DNA of 64,000 nucleotides from Gemmatimonadota bacterium (lineage in GTDB: Bacteria; Gemmatimonadota; Gemmatimonadetes; Gemmatimonadales; Gemmatimonadaceae): positions 248,001 to 312,000 of the forward strand of contig JAQBPX010000038.1 of NCBI GenBank assembly GCA_028287305.1. Reading direction: 5' to 3'. Shown one piece after another: positions 1,296 to 13,260 of this stretch. The translations under genes were made by a program, and so were the position numbers. The notes under the pieces are model-generated. The model ran no database searches and was not told where the DNA came from. It saw only the letters and a program-made list of their open reading frames with translations. How positions within the stretch are numbered: the stretch's first letter is position 1; each line of letters opens with the position of its first letter.

Positions 1296-2840
1296 TCAGG
1301 GCACCGGATCGGCGCAGTCGGTCCCGACGCCGCCACAGCTGTAGTTCGCGATGCGCAGCGTGCCGAGCTCCTTCCCCGGAACCGGCAGCGAGCGCGGCGA
1401 GCCCGGGAACATCACGTCGAAGCGACGGGCATCGCCCCATCCTACTACGACGTTCGTGCCATACAGTTCCAACAGGCGCTCGTAGATCACGGCATCCAGC
1501 AGCGTGCCGCATCCCGTTCCCGCCACGTTCTTCGGCAGGCAGTCCGCCGAGGCCGGCACGCCGGCCGTGGTGACCGCGGGCAGCTTGCCGCGACCGACAC
1601 GGGTCTTGTTGATCATGTCCACCGCGCGCTGCAGGTTGCCGGAGGTGCGGATGAGCGCCTCGGCGATCAGCAGGTCGTTCTCTGCGGAGATCATGTTCGG
1701 GGTGAGTCCCAGGAAGCCGTTCGGCTGTCCACGCGCCATGTAGAGGTAGCGCTGGTAGGCCCACGGCGAGAGCATGTAGAAGCCGCGGGTCGGGTCGCCG
1801 ATCGTGTTGCCGCGATAGGCGAAGTCCGTCCCCATGCGCGCGTCGGGTGACGTCGCCTTGGGGGGGAGCTGCGTGCTGTTCATCTGGACGGGCTGGGTGG
1901 GGTCCATCGCGCGGATCACGCGAAAGTCCACCCGCGTCCAGCTGTCGGTGTTCATGTACACCGTGTAGTTGTTGCCGAAGGGGTTCGAGCTCGTGACGGT
2001 GAGGGAGTAGTCCATTCCCGGAGCCGTGGTCGAGGTCGAGATGCCCTTCTCGGCGTACTGCAGGACCTTCGCCCAGTTGGCCGCCGTGTTCTGCGCGGCA
2101 TTGCGGCTCGTCTGCGAGATCGTGCGGGCCGCGAGCGAGTTCGCATACTTCGCGAGCTTGTCGCCGGTGAGCCCGCCCACGCCGCCCAGGTCTTCCACGT
2201 ACTGCGTGGCGATCGTGTAGTTCTTGCCCGTTGCGCTGGCGATCACCTTGTCGAACCGCGCAAGCGCCGAGTCACGCACTTCCGTGAAGGGGCGCAGCGT
2301 GAGGGCGACCGGATCCGCCTGGTCGCTCGGGATGAAGGCCTTGTCGTAGATCATCGCCAGCTCGCTGACGGACGCTGCCCACACGAAGTCGGCGAGGTCG
2401 TTGTACGCGGCGGTCTGGTCGCTGCCCTCGAGGTTGAGCTTCACGCCGTTCTTGATCGCGCGAATGCCGTCGTTCGCCGAGCCGATGGCCCCGTAGAAGC
2501 CCTGCCACGGGTTGAGCGCGGTCTTCTCGTCGGTGTTGCCCGGCGCATTGTTGTAGGGGATGCGCGGCTGCTGCTGGTTGAAGCGCATGCTGAAGTTGCC
2601 GAAGTTGCCGGTGGCCTCATCGGCCGTGACCGACAGCCCGACTGTCTCCGATTCCTGCGACTCGTTCCAGTAGGGGCCCATGGCGCCGCCGATGACGTTG
2701 CGTACGTCGCCGGGATTCGAGAGCGCCTTGGACTGGTCCGGATTGTTGAGGTTCGGGACGGTGAGTTCCCTGCTGCACGCGGTGGCCACTGCCAGGACCC
2801 CAAGGGTCCCGGCGAGTGCCATCAGGCGAAAGTTCTTCAT
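1296..2840 (-). CDS. SusD/RagB family outer-membrane lipoprotein (first copy)
   Basis: A 514-residue nutrient-binding lipoprotein that would cap a SusC channel on the cell surface. It starts MKNFRLMALAGTLGVLAVATAC, a lipoprotein signal with lipobox VATAC, followed by the typical SusD opening LTVPNLNNPDQ. The late segment with 'LIAEALIRTSGNLQRAVDMINKTRVGRG' character and 'YERLLELYG' matches the C-terminal SusD/RagB region. The ATG at 2840 was chosen over an in-frame ATG at 2849 because the second copy in this window (31702-33246) begins with the same MKNFRL and has exactly the same length. It lies 17 bp after the SusC stop, so the two are co-transcribed. The substrate cannot be told from sequence; SusCD pairs import glycans, peptides or other oligomers. 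Confidence 0.93.
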   Translation of the reverse strand: MKNFRLMALAGTLGVLAVATACSRELTVPNLNNPDQSKALSNPGDVRNVIGGAMGPYWNESQESETVGLSVTADEATGNFGNFSMRFNQQQPRIPYNNAPGNTDEKTALNPWQGFYGAIGSANDGIRAIKNGVKLNLEGSDQTAAYNDLADFVWAASVSELAMIYDKAFIPSDQADPVALTLRPFTEVRDSALARFDKVIASATGKNYTIATQYVEDLGGVGGLTGDKLAKYANSLAARTISQTSRNAAQNTAANWAKVLQYAEKGISTSTTAPGMDYSLTVTSSNPFGNNYTVYMNTDSWTRVDFRVIRAMDPTQPVQMNSTQLPPKATSPDARMGTDFAYRGNTIGDPTRGFYMLSPWAYQRYLYMARGQPNGFLGLTPNMISAENDLLIAEALIRTSGNLQRAVDMINKTRVGRGKLPAVTTAGVPASADCLPKNVAGTGCGTLLDAVIYERLLELYGTNVVVGWGDARRFDVMFPGSPRSLPVPGKELGTLRIANYSCGGVGTDCADPVP

Positions 2841-2857: not shown

Positions 2858-5800
2858 TCAATAGTTGATCGTGATCTGGCCGGTCACCTGCCGCAGCGAC
2901 GGGTAACGGAAGCCGTCGAGGCGGAAGTTGAAGTCGTCGCCGGCGAGCGTCTCCGGATCGGCGCCCGAGTACTTCGACCACGTCTTCAGGTTGCGACCGA
3001 TGAGCGCGACCTTGACGCCATTCGTGAAGCGGCTGAGGCCGATCGCGGAGCGGACGGAGTTCGGCAGCGTGTAGTTGAGCGAGAGCTCGCGGAGCTTGGC
3101 GTAGGAGCCATTCTCGACGAAGTACTCGTTCGGGCTGATGTTGTCGTAGAGCGACCCGGAGTAGAACTCCACCGGCTTGCGCTCGGCGACCGGCTTGCCC
3201 GCCTGGTCCTCGTCGGCGTGACGATAGTCCTGGAACATCCACTGCTTGGTGAAGTTGTAGATCTTGCCGCCCTTCACGCCGTCCACGAGCATGTGGAGGC
3301 CGAAGTCGCCGATGCGAACGTCGTTCGTGATGCCGTAGTTGAAGTCGGGATTCACGTCGCCGATCTTCAGCAGCTGGTTGCCGGTGGGATCCACGTACTT
3401 GATCGGCTTCTCGGCGGCCGTGTGGAACTCGGACTTCTTCACCACGAAGCCCAGCTCGTTCACCTGATAGTCGTTCGTGCTGAACGCCGTGTTGGCCTTG
3501 TTCACCGGGTTGTCGAGCAGCTCGTTGACGTTGTGCACCCACTTGGCGCCGTACATCACGCCGAGGCGCTCGCCTTCCTTGTAGTAGAACTGCTGGCCCT
3601 GGAACTGGCCGAAGGCGTCGGACTGGTTGAACGGTGCCACGCCGAGCCTGTCGATGAACTGGCGGGTGCGATCCCCGGTCAGCGTCATGTTCCAGCTGTA
3701 CTTCGACGCCTCCAGGAGGCGCGTGTTCAGCTGCAGCTCGAGCGTGCGCGCCGAGACGTCGGCCGCGTTCTGCACCTGGAAGGTGAAGCCGCCGGACTTG
3801 GCGGTGGAGAGCGGCACGTTCAGGAAGGCGCCACGCGTGAGGCGATCGGCCTTCGTGAGCTCGAGCGAGAAGCGGTCGAGGAAGTCGGCATTCACCGAGT
3901 ACTCGTTCTCCGTCTGCTCGGCGGGCTTCAGGTTCTTGTTGCCGAGCGCCTGCTTGGAAAGCGACCCGTTGCTGAGCGTGTAGCGCTCGTACTGCGCGGT
4001 GAAGGCGGGCCGGAGGCCGGCGGTGCCGCGCGCCGCGCGGATCTTGAGCTCCTGGACGCCCGGGATGGTGAAGTCCTGGGAGATGCGATACGCACCCGAC
4101 ACTCCGTAGTAGTCACGGAAGCGGTCGTTGGCGCCGAACAGCGAGGAGCCGTCGCGGCGATAGACGAGCTGCGCCAGGTAGCGATCCTTGAGGTCGAACT
4201 GCTGCGTGACGTAGTAGTCCTGCGAGCGCACCGTCTGCTGCGAGGAGGACTGCGCATTCTGCGATGGATCGCCGGCGTTGATCGTCGGCAAGTCCACGTT
4301 GATCTTTCCGGACGTCGCGGCCTGCTGCGCCTGGTACGTGTCCTCGAGGAGGTACGTGAGGCGCGTGGTGCTCTTCAGCGCGCGCCAGTGATTGCTGGAC
4401 GTGGCGTTGAGCTGGGTGTTCTGGTTGGTCGAGCGGAAGAACGACTCGCCGTAGGTGCCGTTGCCTGGCACGCCCTGGTCGGTGAGGAAGCCCTTGAACG
4501 CGTAGTTCGTGTTGTTCGTGTTCAGGCGGTCGGTGCCGTAGGTCCCGTCGACCGTCAGCCAGGTGGTCGGGCGGTAGCGGCCGGTGAACGAGCCGAACAT
4601 GCGCTCGCGGCGGAAGCTCTGGTCACGCGCCCACAGGTCGTAGAGCGGGTTGTCGCGCTGCGACGGCGAGTTCTCCGTGGGCAGCTTGCGGTTGAAGCGC
4701 AGGTCGTTGGCGCCCGCGGGGAACTCGAGGTTCACGTCGGGCGGCGCCTGCAGGAGCGCGAAGAAGGGGCCGTTCTGGGTGGGATCCTGGTCGTTGTTGG
4801 AGAGCGCGTAGAGCACGCTCGCCGACATGTCCAGGTTCTCCAGCAGGCCCTGGTCGAAGTTCACGCGGATGTTGTCCTTCTTCTCGCCGTCCACGAATGG
4901 GAGCAGCCCCTTGTTGCGCTCGGTCGAGTACGAGGTGCTCAGGTTGAGCGCCTGGCGACGAAGGCCGAGGTTCACGTACGAGTTGCCGAAGTCACCGTTG
5001 CGCAGCCACTCCTTGGACTGGTTGCGCCACGTGCCGGCGACGAACTCGTTGTCCGCCACGTGATCGGTGTCGGGCACGCGTGCGCCGCTCACGAGCAGGA
5101 AGCTGCCGTCGGGGTTCAGCTTGAAGTGATGATGATGGTTGAGCGGGACGTACTTCTCCTCGCCGCCGCTCCCCATCTCACCGCGGGCGGTGAGCGAGAA
5201 GCGCGTGTCCGACGCGTTCTTGCCGCGCTTCGTGATGATGTTGATCACGCCGTTCGCGGCGTCGGAGCCGAAGGTGTTGGCCGAGGCCGCACCCTTCAGG
5301 ACCTCGATCGACTCGATGTCGTTGGCGTCGAGGTCGGCGAGCGACCCGCGCGTGATCACGCCGTCCACGATCAGCAGCGGGGACGATCCACCCACCGTGA
5401 GGTTCGTGGAGCCGCGAAGCCGGATGACCGGGTTGGCACCCGGGGTTCCGCGCGCGAGGGCAATGCGCGCGCCGGCGACCTTGCCCTGCAGCGCGCCGAT
5501 CGGCGACACGGAGGGCACCTGGCTGATCTCGGCTTCGCCGACGTGCGTGACGCCGATCGTGAGCTTCTTGGACGACGTCGCCTCGGCGACGCCGGTGACG
5601 ATCATGGCGTCGAGCTTCACGGCTTCGGACTTGAGCGTGAAGTCGGCGGTCTGGGTTCCAGCGGTCACGGCGACCTGGCGGCTCTGCGGGCCGAAGCCCA
5701 GGTGGCGGGCCGCAAGGATGACACTCTGCCCGGACACGCGTGCCGCCGGCACGGTCATCCGGTAGACACCATTGGTGTTCGTGAGCACGTTCATCCCCAT

Positions 5801-5965
5801 CGAAGCGATGGAGACGTTCGCGCCCTGGATCGGGCCACCTGCCTCATTGCTGATGCGTCCCGTGATCACTGCGTCCTGCTCCTGTGCCGCTGCGACAGGC
5901 GCGTGAATTGCGGCGACCAACGCACCCACGCCGAGCAGGCGCAGGAATCTGCGTGTTCCCATCAT
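2858..5965 (-). CDS. SusC/RagA family TonB-linked outer-membrane receptor (first copy)
   Basis: About 1035 residues. It has a signal peptide (MMGTRRFLRLLGVGALVAAI, then AAAQ), an N-terminal carboxypeptidase-regulatory-like domain (AVITGRISNEAGGPIQGANV), a plug domain with the SusC signature (LLIVDGVITRG, IESIEVLKGAASANTFGS, GVINIITKRG) and a long beta-barrel ending in a terminal strand (TGQITINY). It forms the TonB-energised channel that works with the adjacent SusD lipoprotein. AGAGAGG lies 4 nt before the ATG at 5965 (7 nt before an ATG at 5962), so the start is one of these rather than further upstream. A run of four histidines (5126-5137) is conserved as THHH in the second copy. The gene is divergent from a LytS/LytTR pair. 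Confidence 0.95.
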   Translation of the reverse strand: MMGTRRFLRLLGVGALVAAIHAPVAAAQEQDAVITGRISNEAGGPIQGANVSIASMGMNVLTNTNGVYRMTVPAARVSGQSVILAARHLGFGPQSRQVAVTAGTQTADFTLKSEAVKLDAMIVTGVAEATSSKKLTIGVTHVGEAEISQVPSVSPIGALQGKVAGARIALARGTPGANPVIRLRGSTNLTVGGSSPLLIVDGVITRGSLADLDANDIESIEVLKGAASANTFGSDAANGVINIITKRGKNASDTRFSLTARGEMGSGGEEKYVPLNHHHHFKLNPDGSFLLVSGARVPDTDHVADNEFVAGTWRNQSKEWLRNGDFGNSYVNLGLRRQALNLSTSYSTERNKGLLPFVDGEKKDNIRVNFDQGLLENLDMSASVLYALSNNDQDPTQNGPFFALLQAPPDVNLEFPAGANDLRFNRKLPTENSPSQRDNPLYDLWARDQSFRRERMFGSFTGRYRPTTWLTVDGTYGTDRLNTNNTNYAFKGFLTDQGVPGNGTYGESFFRSTNQNTQLNATSSNHWRALKSTTRLTYLLEDTYQAQQAATSGKINVDLPTINAGDPSQNAQSSSQQTVRSQDYYVTQQFDLKDRYLAQLVYRRDGSSLFGANDRFRDYYGVSGAYRISQDFTIPGVQELKIRAARGTAGLRPAFTAQYERYTLSNGSLSKQALGNKNLKPAEQTENEYSVNADFLDRFSLELTKADRLTRGAFLNVPLSTAKSGGFTFQVQNAADVSARTLELQLNTRLLEASKYSWNMTLTGDRTRQFIDRLGVAPFNQSDAFGQFQGQQFYYKEGERLGVMYGAKWVHNVNELLDNPVNKANTAFSTNDYQVNELGFVVKKSEFHTAAEKPIKYVDPTGNQLLKIGDVNPDFNYGITNDVRIGDFGLHMLVDGVKGGKIYNFTKQWMFQDYRHADEDQAGKPVAERKPVEFYSGSLYDNISPNEYFVENGSYAKLRELSLNYTLPNSVRSAIGLSRFTNGVKVALIGRNLKTWSKYSGADPETLAGDDFNFRLDGFRYPSLRQVTGQITINY

Positions 5966-6303
5966 GTTGCCTCTCTGTTCTGACTGGTTCAGCATCGCGA
6001 GGACTGATGTCGTGCGATGAGCTCACTCGTCCTGAGTGGACGTGCGCATGGTGTCCCGCGGCGCTGCAAAGGGACAACGACGAATCCCCCACCCGCGCGA
6101 TCGTGCCGTGAGTCGCGCAGGACGCGGCCATGTCGGGAGTGGCGGCGTGCGCCTCGCCGCGTCGCGGGCCACACCTCGCGAGGCGCGGCTCACACCGCAC
6201 GGGAAGCGGTTCGGCCCCGCGCACATCGGCTGGGCCACTCACTGCGCGGCTCACCACCTGGCGTATTGGATTGCGCCCGCCGCGGTGCCACTATGGGTAT
6301 CAC
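5966..6303. other. Divergent intergenic region between susC copy 1 and the LytS-type kinase
   Basis: These 338 bp separate two genes reading outwards and must hold both promoters and any regulatory sites. A short dyad CACTC-GTCCT-GAGTG lies near 6020-6035. No convincing sigma-70 hexamer pair or LytTR-type repeat could be assigned by eye. An open frame continues upstream of the kinase ATG, but its protein sequence there is arginine-rich and unlike a membrane N-terminus, so it was treated as non-coding. Confidence 0.5.
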
Positions 6304-8427
6304 ATGGGCACCTCCTCGGGCACTCGTTCACCGGCCAGTCATTCCTTCTCGCGAGGCGCAGCCGCGCTGGTCGGGGCGTGGCTGGCGCTCTCGCTGGTGC
6401 GCCTGCTCGCGCGCCTCGTGGCGTTCAGCATCTCGGCGCGATCGGCCGGCGACCTGGCGCGCATGATCCTGCTGGTGACGGCGTTCTGGATGCTGGCCAC
6501 GCCGGTGGTGCTGATGCTGGAACGGCGCGTTGCGCACTGGCCCGTCCGGTCCGCCGGGAGATGGGGCGCGCACGCGCTTCATCTCGCCGTGCTGATGCTC
6601 GTCGAGCCATGGTGGTTCAGGCAGGTGCTCCTGTGGGCTGGGGGCACGCCCGCCGGGTACTGGGTCGCCATGGTCTCGCGCGCGGACACCAACGCCCTGC
6701 TCTACGCGCTGGTGCTGATCGTGGACCAGCTGCGCCTGCGCTATCGGGACGCACAGGCACGTTCCGATGAGGCGGCCAGGCTGCAGTCGGTCGTCGCCGA
6801 CGCCGAGCTGAATACGCTCACCCTGCAGCTGCAGCCGCACTTCCTGTTCAACGCGATGCAGCTCATCGCGGAGGCTGGCCACTCCGACGTGGATGGCGCG
6901 CGCAAGACGCTGTCGGACCTGCGCGGGCTGCTCGCCTGGTCGTCGGGCCTCGAGAAGCGGCGCGAGGTCTCCCTGCATGAGGAGCTGGACTTCCTCTGCG
7001 CATTCGCCGCCATCCAGGAGCGCCGCTTCGGCCGGCGACTCACCGTGTCGGTGCTGGCGAGCAGCGAAGCCATGACCATGCTCGTGCCGCCGCTGCTCCT
7101 CCAGCCGCTGGTGGAGAATGCCATCCGTCACGGCATCGCGCCGCGCGCGCGTGGTGGCATCGTCACCGTGAAGGCATTCTGCGTGGAGGGCCGCCTGCTG
7201 ATGACGGTCACGGACGACGGCGTGGGCCTGCGCGGCCGTGACCAGGCGACTGGGCTCGGCATCTCCGTCACGCGCAAGCGGCTCTTTCACGCCTACGGCG
7301 AGGACCACTCGTTCGGGCTGGGCCCTGCCGACGGCGTGGGCACTACCGCGCGCGTGGACATTCCCGCGCGGCGCGCGCTCGAGCATGGCGCGGTGGACCT
7401 GACCGCCGGCGCATTCGGCGATGACGACGCGCAGGCGGACCACCAGGAGTCCCCAAGCGCCGAGCGCGGGCATGCCCATCCGCTGGCGCAGGGCTTCCGC
7501 ATTGCCGCGGGATGGGCGCTGGTGCTCCTGCTGCTGATGCCCGTGGAGATGTTCGCGGCCGACCCGACGCGCGGCGCCTTCGTGCAGAACATGGTCGAGG
7601 AGCTGGCCGGCATTCCATTCTGGCTGCTCCTCACCGTGGCCGCACTGGTCGCCGGCAACCGCGCACGCCACACGAGGATCACCTACGCGGTGGATGCACT
7701 CGTCGCGCTGGGCCTGCTCGCGCTGCATGCGCGCGCGGGACCGATGATGCTCGGCCTGCTCGGGCGGCCGATGGAGGCGACGCTCACCTACGCGATGTGG
7801 ATTCCGTGGGACCTCTCGGCGTACGGCATCGTGCTGGCGGCAACGCGCGCTGACGCGATGGCGGCGTGGGCTCGCTCGCACCTGGATCGCGCCGCTCGCC
7901 TGCGAGAGCAGTGGCAGCACGTGCGCGGACGGCTTCAGCGCCTGCGAATGCAGCAGCCACTGCTCCTGAACGCGCTGGACTCAGTCGCCCGCGCGCAAAC
8001 TGTCGCAGCCTGGGATCGCGCCGCCGTGAGCTGCGCCGAATTCTTCCGGGCACTGCTCGCCGCCGGTGAGTCCGCGGAGCTCACGCTCGGGCAGGAGCTT
8101 TCGCTGGCGGAATCGTATGCCTCCCTCTGCCTCGCGCACGACGTGGATGGCGAGGGCTGCGTGACCGAGGTGGACGAGATGCTCCTCGAGTCGCGCGTGG
8201 CCACGGGGTGCGTGACGGTGATGGTGGACACCCTGCTCCGCTCGCTGGACTCGACGCCGCGCCGCCTGACCCTGCAGGTCGCCGAGGGCGGTGATGCGCT
8301 CGCCATTCGCGTGACGGCGTTGCTCCCGGATGGAGTTGCCACGGTGAAGGCCCCGCTCCACTCGCTCGCGCCTGCAGCCGGGCGCGCACCCCACGCCCGC
8401 CTCTTTTCCTTTCTCCCACACTCCTAG
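6304..8427 (+). CDS. LytS/YehU-type sensor histidine kinase with a fused degenerate second kinase module
   Basis: 707 residues. Module 1 has about four membrane helices (residues ~12-150), then a His_kinase (PF06580-type) box with LQPHFLFNAM (H179, N183) and an ATPase domain with VENAIRHG, DDGVGL and GLGIS. A linker is followed by module 2: four more membrane helices (~400-520), then a helix with QQPLLLNAL, where P552 replaces the phospho-histidine and N556 aligns with N183. The N-box is VDTLLRSL and no glycine-rich boxes remain. Module 2 is therefore a full-length internal copy that has lost catalytic residues. It ends 1 bp before the LytTR regulator gene, its likely partner. The ATG at 6304 was chosen because the protein upstream of it is not membrane-like. 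SusC copy 1 is divergent and is a plausible target. Confidence 0.9.
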   Translation: MGTSSGTRSPASHSFSRGAAALVGAWLALSLVRLLARLVAFSISARSAGDLARMILLVTAFWMLATPVVLMLERRVAHWPVRSAGRWGAHALHLAVLMLVEPWWFRQVLLWAGGTPAGYWVAMVSRADTNALLYALVLIVDQLRLRYRDAQARSDEAARLQSVVADAELNTLTLQLQPHFLFNAMQLIAEAGHSDVDGARKTLSDLRGLLAWSSGLEKRREVSLHEELDFLCAFAAIQERRFGRRLTVSVLASSEAMTMLVPPLLLQPLVENAIRHGIAPRARGGIVTVKAFCVEGRLLMTVTDDGVGLRGRDQATGLGISVTRKRLFHAYGEDHSFGLGPADGVGTTARVDIPARRALEHGAVDLTAGAFGDDDAQADHQESPSAERGHAHPLAQGFRIAAGWALVLLLLMPVEMFAADPTRGAFVQNMVEELAGIPFWLLLTVAALVAGNRARHTRITYAVDALVALGLLALHARAGPMMLGLLGRPMEATLTYAMWIPWDLSAYGIVLAATRADAMAAWARSHLDRAARLREQWQHVRGRLQRLRMQQPLLLNALDSVARAQTVAAWDRAAVSCAEFFRALLAAGESAELTLGQELSLAESYASLCLAHDVDGEGCVTEVDEMLLESRVATGCVTVMVDTLLRSLDSTPRRLTLQVAEGGDALAIRVTALLPDGVATVKAPLHSLAPAAGRAPHARLFSFLPHS

Positions 8428-8428
8428 C

Positions 8429-9232
8429 ATGCTGACCGTCATCATTGTGGACGATGAAGAGCTGGCCCGGGCGCGCATGCGCCGCCTGCTCTCGTCGGAG
8501 CAGGACGCCGAGCTCGTTGCGGAGTACGACAACGGCGCCGAGGCGCTCGAGGGCATTCGCGAGCATGCGCCGGACGTCGTGTTCCTGGACGTCGAGATGC
8601 CGGAGATCGATGGCATCGCGGTAGCCGAGCAGCTCGCGGCGGACGCGCACGTGCCGATGATCGTCTTCGCCACGGCATTCGACCGTTACGCGGTGCGGGC
8701 GTTCGAGGTGAGCGCCATGGACTACCTGCTCAAGCCGGTGAACGAGGAGCGGTTCGCACAGGCGTGGGCGAAGCTGCGCGAGCGCGCCGCGGCGGGCGCG
8801 CCGGGTGAGGCGCAGCGGCTGCTTGCGGCGCTGGCGCAGATCCAGGCGGGCGACGAGACGGGCAAGCGCGCTGGATCACGGTCGCTCTATCGCATCCGGT
8901 TCATGGTGCCGGAAACGGACAAGACGGTGCTGGTGCGCGCCGAGGACGTGCAGTGGATCGAGGCGGCGGGAAATTACGTGCGCCTGCACACGGCGCAGGG
9001 GAACCGGTTGATCCGCGAGTCGCTGGCGTCGCTGGATGCGGAGCTGGACCCGACGCGATTCGCGCGCATTCACCGGCGGGCGATCGTGAACCTGAACTGC
9101 ATCAAGGAAATCCGCCCGTGGATCTCGGGCGACGGCATCGTGCTGCTGCAGACCGGGGAGAAGCTGCGCCTGAGCCGGACCTATAGAAGGGCATTCGACT
9201 CGCGGCTGGAGGGGTTGCCGGTGCCGGCGTGA
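8429..9232 (+). CDS. LytTR family response regulator
   Basis: 267 residues. The N-terminal receiver domain has acidic residues D8-D9, phospho-acceptor D54 (VVFLDVEMPEIDG) and a conserved lysine in DYLLKPVNEE. The C-terminal LytTR DNA-binding domain is recognised by VQWIEAAGNYVRLHT and RIHRRAIVNLNCIKEI. It starts one base after the stop of the membrane kinase, which is the classical LytS-LytTR arrangement, so it should receive phosphate from H179 of that kinase. It activates or represses promoters through LytTR direct repeats; no site was assigned here. Downstream lies a long inverted repeat shared with the convergent gene. Confidence 0.95.
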   Translation: MLTVIIVDDEELARARMRRLLSSEQDAELVAEYDNGAEALEGIREHAPDVVFLDVEMPEIDGIAVAEQLAADAHVPMIVFATAFDRYAVRAFEVSAMDYLLKPVNEERFAQAWAKLRERAAAGAPGEAQRLLAALAQIQAGDETGKRAGSRSLYRIRFMVPETDKTVLVRAEDVQWIEAAGNYVRLHTAQGNRLIRESLASLDAELDPTRFARIHRRAIVNLNCIKEIRPWISGDGIVLLQTGEKLRLSRTYRRAFDSRLEGLPVPA

Positions 9233-11891: not shown

Positions 11892-12359
11892 TCACCCGAC
11901 CTGCACGTCCCCCTCGACCAGCACCTCGAAGTTCACCGAGTTGGCGATGAAGCAGAGCTCGTGGGCCCGGTGGTGCAGCTCCTCGATCCTCGCGACCATC
12001 TCCTGGCCCTGCACGGTGACCGAGGGACGCAGGAGCACGCGCGTGAAGCGTCCACCGCCGGTGGGCGTCTCCGCCATCGTGCCCTCGGCGTGGTCTTCGT
12101 ACGCGGTGACCACGACGCCTGCGTCGGCTGAGAGGTGCAGGAACCAGAGCTTGTGACACGCCGAAAGCGAGGCGACGAGCAGCTCCTCCGGGTTCCAGCG
12201 TTGCGCGTCGCCGCGAAAGTTCGGGTCGCTCGATCCGGCAATTGCCGGCTTAGCGCCTGCACTGATCTCGTGCGCGCGCTCATACGCGCGGTAGGCGGAA
12301 GTGCCGGTGCCGGTGTTGCCCGTCCACCGAACGGTCACTCGGTAATGGTGGTCGCTCAT
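11892..12359 (-). CDS. OsmC family peroxidase-like protein
   Basis: 155 residues, standard for the small OsmC/Ohr-like family. The two family cysteines are present: one in LLVASLSACHKLWFLHLS and one in HELCFIANSVNFEVLVEGD. These fit the OsmC fold, in which a dimer reduces organic or fatty-acid hydroperoxides with paired thiols. 'GDAQRWNPEELLVASL' is the typical helix leading to the first cysteine. The ATG at 12359 overlaps the stop of the upstream NTF2-like gene by 4 nt (ATGA), so translation is coupled. The protein is cytoplasmic with no signal peptide. The 240 bp after its stop (to 11648) show no gene. Confidence 0.92.
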   Translation of the reverse strand: MSDHHYRVTVRWTGNTGTGTSAYRAYERAHEISAGAKPAIAGSSDPNFRGDAQRWNPEELLVASLSACHKLWFLHLSADAGVVVTAYEDHAEGTMAETPTGGGRFTRVLLRPSVTVQGQEMVARIEELHHRAHELCFIANSVNFEVLVEGDVQVG

Positions 12360-13177
12360 TCCCCAACCATCGCCTTCCACGTCGAGATGCGCCAGCGTCC
12401 ATCCGCCCCGAGCTGGTAGACCGTGACGTATGATCCGGACAATCCCTGGTCGGGCATCGTGAAGCGTCCCGTCTCCATCGCCGAGTTGCCCTGTCGCACG
12501 GCGCCCTGCGTGGCGAAGCGCATCGTCACCGGCGACTTCACCGCCGAGAACAGCGTCGCGTAGAACTGCATCACCTCGGCGAGTCCGGAATTCACCTTTC
12601 CCCCGCGGGGCTGGTGAAAGAGCGTGATCGCGTCCTCGGTGAGGGCCGTGCGAAAGAGCGACGTGTCCTTCGTGGCCAGCGCGGAGAGAAAGCTCGTGCG
12701 CGCGCTGTCGATTCCCGGCACTCGTTCGGCCGCGCCCGTGGGCGTCTGCTGGTAGAGCGCGTTCTCCCAGCGACCCGCGCGGCGGACGTACAATGAGCTG
12801 GTCCACACGGGGCTCGGCACGGGCGCGCCACCGCACGTGGTGGATTGCTCGGCGTGATACGTGAGCACGGCGACGTCGGCGGTGAAGCGCACCACGTGGA
12901 AGTCACGCGTGCCGTAGCTGGCGACCACGCAGGCCGGGGACGCCACGCTGCGCACCACGTAGCTCTTTCCGCCCGGGCCGCCCGCGCCCATTTCCACATG
13001 GTCCGCCGAGAGGAACCGCGAGAAGTACACGCTGTCGCGCGCCTTCCACGCTTCCCACGAGAGCGTCTCGAGGCGCACCAGCGTATCCGTCAGGGACTCG
13101 GTGCGCACGCGCGCCACGGAGTCGGGCGAGGTGAGGGCAATCGACGCTAACAGCAGGCTGGCGATGGTCAGGGACAT
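12356..13177 (-). CDS. Secreted protein with two NTF2/SnoaL-like (DUF4440-type) domains
   Basis: 273 residues. The ATG at 13177 follows GGAG at 5 nt and gives the leader MSLTIASLLLASIALTS. Residues ~30-140 (TLVRLETLSWEAWKARDSVYFSRFLSADHVEM...) and ~160-270 (SARTSFLSALATKDTSLFRTALTEDAITL...WRISTWKAMV) are two cone-shaped NTF2-like domains in tandem. Both show the W-A---D---F---L opening helix and a closing W-I-tW strand. Such proteins may bind small ligands or act as lyases or isomerases; no specific active site is evident. It is translationally coupled to the downstream OsmC gene and divergent from ADOP permease 1. Confidence 0.82.
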   Translation of the reverse strand: MSLTIASLLLASIALTSPDSVARVRTESLTDTLVRLETLSWEAWKARDSVYFSRFLSADHVEMGAGGPGGKSYVVRSVASPACVVASYGTRDFHVVRFTADVAVLTYHAEQSTTCGGAPVPSPVWTSSLYVRRAGRWENALYQQTPTGAAERVPGIDSARTSFLSALATKDTSLFRTALTEDAITLFHQPRGGKVNSGLAEVMQFYATLFSAVKSPVTMRFATQGAVRQGNSAMETGRFTMPDQGLSGSYVTVYQLGADGRWRISTWKAMVGE

Positions 13178-13260
13178 GAGGGCTCCGGTCGGTGAGGAGT
13201 GCGCGCCAAAGATGCGCGCGGCGACGACGGCCAATTGTCAGGATCTTGGAATTACCGCGA

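Follow-up and report, generated by a model that had tools for sequence, protein, structure and literature searches.

A LytS-like histidine kinase covalently joined to a putative pseudokinase half in Gemmatimonadaceae

Histidine kinases are taught as symmetric homodimers. Here we describe, in a stretch of 64,000 nucleotides from a Gemmatimonadota bacterium (hereafter the window), a gene for a 707-residue membrane protein in which a PF06580-type kinase is covalently joined to a second, kinase-like half that appears to have lost its catalytic parts. We lean towards the reading that this second half (module 2) would act as a non-catalytic sensor and DHp partner of the first (module 1), and that the whole would work with the LytTR regulator encoded downstream. 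Selection has maintained the pairing in at least 25 genes, suggesting a role for the dead half as a built-in sensor or dimer partner of the live one. The features of the locus are the following.

6304..8427 (+): tandem kinase-pseudokinase gene, 707 aa (open frame, Pfam matches, G+C by codon position)
6304..7389 (+): module 1, residues 1-362, with four membrane helices, DHp and CA; the predicted active half (AlphaFold helices, GHKL strands, Pfam PF06580 and HATPase_c)
6802..7041 (+): DHp domain of module 1 (PF06580 His_kinase), H179 lying at 6838-6840 (Pfam, residues 167-246)
7096..7371 (+): ATPase domain (HATPase_c) in module 1; N-box VENAIRHG, G-boxes DDGVGL and TGLGI (Pfam, residues 265-356; motif positions)
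7384..7479 (+): inter-module linker, residues 361-392 (AlphaFold pLDDT under 50 across 361-392)
7480..7863 (+): membrane region of module 2 with four predicted helices, residues about 393-520 (AlphaFold; hydropathy agrees for the first three)
7798..8130 (+): lead-in helix and predicted pseudo-DHp in module 2, spanning residues 499-609; P552 (7957-7959) replaces the His and N556 is retained (DHp alignment, PF06580 E 0.0066, AlphaFold)
8155..8361 (+): predicted GHKL (CA) remnant of module 2, residues 618-686; VDTLLRSL replaces the N-box, and the ATP lid and G-boxes are absent (AlphaFold strands and helix, hhalign to module 1)
8429..9232 (+): LytTR response regulator, starting 1 base past the kinase stop (Response_reg E 2.8e-26, LytTR E 5.8e-25)

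The kinase gene is read as one uninterrupted frame of 707 codons; its contig measures 677 kb and its genome 4.37 Mb. Third-codon-position G+C is alike in module 1 (0.89), module 2 (0.86) and the downstream regulator (0.90), and the entire frame is therefore coding. Module 1 matches PF06580 at residues 167-246 (E 1.7e-18) and HATPase_c at residues 265-356, both above cut-off, and it carries H179 within PHFLFN, VENAIRHG at 270, DDGVGL at 304 and TGLGI at 316; AlphaFold places its helices at 10-40, 45-76, 84-111 and 119-175, together with GHKL strands. By its motifs, module 1 is predicted to be a PF06580-type (LytS-like) histidine kinase with every catalytic motif in place. Because no Pfam match to the 5TMR-LYT sensor domain was obtained in the 707-aa protein, even at a maximum E of 10, and four helices are predicted instead, the protein is better labelled a LytS-like catalytic core with a four-helix membrane sensor than a member of the LytS family. 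NCBIfam gave no informative name for this kinase, and Pfam found no Response_reg match in the 707-aa protein, which is thus not a two-transmitter kinase of the hybrid kind.

In module 2, P552 stands at the histidine site, N556 is present and VDTLLRSL, at 641, takes the place of the N-box. Taken alone, this half scores below threshold against PF06580 (17.1 bits for a cut-off of 25.2; E 0.0066) and has no Pfam match to HATPase_c. Its relationship to histidine kinases was addressed by profile and structure comparisons. When a profile of 20 module-2 sequences was aligned by hhalign to a profile of 19 module-1 sequences sharing no rows with it, the match spanned 297 columns, beginning at the first membrane helix and ending midway through the GHKL strands (probability 99.7, E 3.8e-27); the window's module 2 by itself matched the module-1 profile at E 5.1e-10. 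Individually, 11 of the 20 module 2s match PF06580 at E <= 0.01, and none of the 20 matches HATPase_c in Pfam. A sequence search of the PDB with the module 2s returned GanS (6swj) as sole match, at E 0.00099. The window protein was modelled with AlphaFold from a 9-row alignment of its own and related-locus sequences (pLDDT 71, pTM 0.57), and a longer relative, L133, likewise from 9 rows (pTM 0.62). In the window model, module 2 comprises helices 393-419, 425-453, 460-482, a long helix 499-562 running from the membrane into the DHp, 567-587 and 595-609, followed by a GHKL part made of strands 618-623, 654-662, 665-674 and 677-686 and helix 636-647, with no ATP lid; module 2 of L133 shows a fuller GHKL fold that is still lid-less. 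The best Foldseek match was the GanS kinase domain 6swj, with DivL (4q20) and RetS also listed; the queries were the whole models, so these matches concern the kinase core and are not reported separately for module 2. As far as sequence and predicted fold can tell, module 2 is a true histidine kinase relative that lacks the phospho-accepting His and the ATP-binding motifs.

A sequence-only reading of this DNA had already described a 707-residue LytS-type kinase made of two full modules, the second a complete and inactivated copy of the first. The single frame, the catalytic residues and boxes of module 1, the substitutions of module 2 together with N556 and the missing glycine boxes, and the four membrane helices preceding the DHp in each half are all as it had claimed, and the second half is indeed predicted to fold like a kinase. 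The LytS designation holds for the PF06580 core, the HATPase_c domain and the LytTR partner, and fails for the sensor, 5TMR-LYT being absent. Module 2 of the window protein is not complete, the last section of the GHKL part (ATP lid, later helix and strands) being missing. Nor does it look like a copy of module 1, at least not a recent one: the two fall into separate clades and share about 20% identity (18% within the window protein).

We asked how widely the tandem layout occurs. Profile searches covered 179 genomes of the family and then, more widely, 288 at the level of the order and 395 at that of the phylum, and the frames were then read. The top-scoring group consists of tandem proteins (177-490 bits, one case cut by a contig end apart), all from the window's own family, Gemmatimonadaceae: among the matches listed, at least 25 tandem genes occur in 22 genomes and in 10 of the 35 genera of the family. 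The histidine is kept in all 22 readable first modules, each time within PHFLFN, and in none of the 24 readable second modules, in which E, P, Q or A is found instead; the 51 single-module kinases from the same loci all keep it. The loss in module 2 (0/24 against 51/51) is therefore not due to chance. Four single frames without the His proved to be module 2s of tandems cut by contig ends. A module-2 profile could favour His-less relatives; the same searches also scored many single-module kinases and one tandem of another family with both histidines (L125, in genome G375), and tandems with an active second half should therefore have been noticed. A scan of contigs with the window's module 2 alone retrieved no relatives, and a scan with eight aligned long-form module-2 sequences retrieved 8 named loci. 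Relatives in the named collection belong to Gemmatimonadetes and Gemmatimonadaceae MAGs and to Roseisolibacter sp. H3M3-2. No stop or frameshift separates the modules in any tandem relative, the cut cases sitting at contig ends. The reading of a kinase fused to a pseudokinase has thus survived on both points that could have overturned it, the fold of the second half and the unsplit state of its relatives; as for the orthologues, the double layout is retained in at least 25 genes and the exchange of His for Pro, which had been singled out in the window protein, is not uniform.

Three of these loci deserve separate mention. The window's own genome carries a second tandem, of the short form described below (L076:4303-6057 (+), G000:C23); it adjoins a LytTR regulator and a further PF06580 kinase, this one single. 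At L092:46-2652 (-) (G040:C13), the tandem frame continues without a stop into an apparent lipoprotein with DUF305-like sequence, recognised by eye; this may be a genuine fusion or a mistake of assembly or sequencing. The both-histidine case, L125:2205-4709 (-) (G375:C188), comes from another family of the same class and is a separate tandem PF06580 protein of 835 aa, in which the degenerate module comes first (it keeps its H, with FLFATLE and the N-box LVEGALERGAA) and is followed by an intact one. Its two modules are mutual sisters (support 100/99) and, judged from sequence, a similar design arose here a second time, independently.

The history of the tandem was then examined. Distances among the first modules parallel those among the second (Mantel r 0.92, 0 of 2000 permutations) and, in a tree without the long rows, each module forms a single clade (100/100 for module 1 and 100/99 for module 2); with the window's very long rows included, the supports are 97/88 and 59/97. 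Because of this congruence and of the single clade per module, the tandem most likely arose once in Gemmatimonadaceae and was inherited as a unit. A recent self-duplication is ruled out by the within-protein identity of the modules (15-25% over the tandems) and by the separate module clades; BLASTP of module 1 against module 2 gave a best E of only 0.045. Regarding deeper origins, very old internal duplication versus fusion of two paralogues gave AU p 0.23 and 0.41, and a constraint joining the window's own two modules gave p 0.14, with no formal rejection. NG86 dN/dS lies between 0.06 and 0.39 in module 2 and between 0.17 and 0.35 in module 1; these values refer to pairs of relatives, with dS near saturation in several of them, and the branches that lead to the window's own module pair are very long (2.5 and 2.7 changes per column). 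These ratios and the open frames rule out a pseudogene or frameshift artefact. The tandem layout is evidently old and under purifying selection in Gemmatimonadaceae, and its conservation across 10 genera under such selection supports a retained function.

Two forms of module 2 can be distinguished: a long form with a lid-less GHKL remnant and the conserved motifs IPSRLxCTMVDDLL and HxWW, and a short form that ends soon after the DHp. The window gene has a partial GHKL remnant. The short form makes up a whole clade, in which the membrane helices and the DHp are kept and the ATPase part is lost, and its module 2 is nevertheless under purifying selection (dN/dS 0.24-0.36); module 2 would therefore work through its membrane helices and DHp and not through ATP binding, which argues that these are its working parts. 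Past its fourth membrane helix, module 2 has a conserved W-x-R-x-R signature. The surroundings of the former H-box differ strongly between the forms (PPxLL in the short, RP[QE]F[LV]LATL in the long). Within the linker, which varies elsewhere along its length, a motif W[RK]TGE[FY] is conserved in a long-form clade (L069, L071, L073, L074, L075, L077, L078 and L083) and is absent from the window.

A LytTR regulator lies directly downstream, on the same strand, in 20 of the 23 tandem loci with sequence there, the window included; the gap ranges from about -4 to 79 bases and is 1 base in the window. In the other loci the regulator is upstream (two cases, L091 and L092) or none is nearby (L072). 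The downstream LytTR regulator is probably the cognate partner of the tandem kinase. None of the other neighbours recurs widely across the tandem loci, and no pathway is therefore assigned.

How might the two halves work together? Module 2 putatively modulates module 1, the hint being its covalent linkage to an intact kinase. In the mechanism that we propose, the four membrane helices of module 2 would receive a second signal, its two DHp helices would pair with those of module 1, one chain thereby forming the four-helix bundle that normally takes two, and module 1 would autophosphorylate in cis on His179 before phosphorylating the LytTR regulator. By analogy, such an intramolecular DHp1-DHp2 pairing, which would make the protein a fused pseudo-heterodimer, is plausible. 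A chain working as a monomer would have to phosphorylate its own histidine in cis. In its strictest form, the proposal is a single-chain asymmetric pair of one active and one dead protomer that functions as a monomer, necessarily autophosphorylates in cis and takes in two separate membrane signals; this form we put forward tentatively, as a possibility that may well give way to another arrangement. It would be comparable in design to the tandem of kinase and pseudokinase in JAK kinases, which are eukaryotic tandem kinase-pseudokinases.

We consider it rather unlikely, though also compatible with the sequence and worth weighing, that two chains assemble through an ordinary, active module 1-module 1 homodimer, the module 2s forming a separate non-catalytic sensory or stabilising bundle, in which case module 2 would be an extra membrane sensor and not a substitute protomer. 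Histidine kinases homodimerise as a rule, the LytS-type BtsS having been shown to do so normally (PMC10653868), and module 2 has membrane helices of its own under a selection pressure that would fit a sensor; however, the retention of the DHp pair after loss of the CA part in a whole clade is left unexplained, unless that pair is needed for contacts between module 2s. It is improbable that the pseudo-DHp of module 2 instead serves as a docking site for the LytTR regulator or for the phosphorylated regulator, tuning or sensing the output as DivL does with DivK~P: DivL is a His-less histidine kinase fold that binds a phosphorylated regulator and controls another kinase (PMC5361649), and the LytTR regulator is the only constant neighbour, yet in module 2 the sequence around the H-box is very different in the short and the long forms, in contrast to the conserved regulator. 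That module 2 is a functionless duplication heading for loss is very improbable, for although its catalytic motifs are gone, its CA part is lost in one clade and the window's copy is very divergent, the dN/dS of module 2 between relatives (as given above), the lack of internal stops in more than 20 genes, the conserved W-x-R-x-R signature and the congruent module distances all contradict it.

The favoured reading, a kinase with a covalent, non-catalytic partner, has precedents among systems built from separate proteins. In group A Streptococcus, the kinase FasB and the proposed pseudokinase FasC heterodimerise upstream of the regulator FasA (PMC12675982), an arrangement that resembles the window locus in placing a kinase and a pseudokinase ahead of a response regulator; however, FasB and FasC are separate proteins and FasC keeps its phospho-accepting His, its CA domain being dispensable, whereas the window protein is one chain with a His-less pseudo-half. 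The heterodimeric DHp-DHp four-helix bundle of RetS-GacS from Pseudomonas aeruginosa has been crystallised (PDB 7N0E), RetS replacing one GacS DHp (PMC12148439). Here two histidine kinase folds pair by their DHp, as proposed for the window protein, but the two are separate proteins, the interaction is inhibitory and each is also able to homodimerise. Caulobacter DivL is a His-replaced kinase fold that modulates another kinase, CckA (PMC5361649); it shares with module 2 the histidine kinase fold and the replaced His, and its structure is among the best fold matches, but it is stand-alone, has Tyr for His and carries PAS sensors. GanS, BtsS and LytS (PF06580) share the PHFLFN H-box, HATPase_c and a LytTR regulator, GanS 6swj being the best solved structure, and differ in having a single catalytic module; in addition, BtsS and LytS have the 5TMR-LYT sensor (PMC10653868) that the window protein lacks. 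Two transmitter modules in one chain are also known: a 2010 survey found them in only 2 of 15,704 non-hybrid kinases (PMC3018481), and the known two-transmitter histidine kinases are nearly all hybrids with receiver domains, unlike the window protein.

Pseudo-histidine kinases were already known (PMC12632262; PMC5361649), as was a plant family of tandem kinase-pseudokinases among the eukaryotic protein kinases (PMC6170490). In a literature search that mostly covered papers outside subscription, we found no paper joining LytS, histidine kinase and pseudokinase, and no covalent histidine kinase-pseudokinase family. Pseudo-histidine kinases, eukaryotic tandems and heterodimers of separate proteins being known, what appears to be new is thus a covalent histidine kinase-pseudokinase family. 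The catalytic need for a second protomer is hard to test when both protomers are the same gene product; in the tandem, the two halves have been made different and joined by evolution in many species, and each can be mutated alone. Asymmetry, cis versus trans phosphorylation and regulation by a pseudokinase thereby become directly testable in bacteria. Domain annotation can overlook the class, since Pfam scores of the dead half are often under the cut-offs.

Other genes of the window are of side interest. Divergent to the kinase, at 2858-5995 (-), lies a gene for a SusC/RagA-kind TonB-dependent receptor (Plug, CarboxypepD_reg), followed at about 1296-2740 (-) by a SusD-like lipoprotein frame recognised by eye, with no Pfam match. 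This pair, which is not a conserved neighbour of the tandems, is a possible target of the kinase system. Another fused duplicated domain is found nearby, at 12356-13234 (-), where a single protein has two NTF2-like halves, DUF4440 then SnoaL-like.
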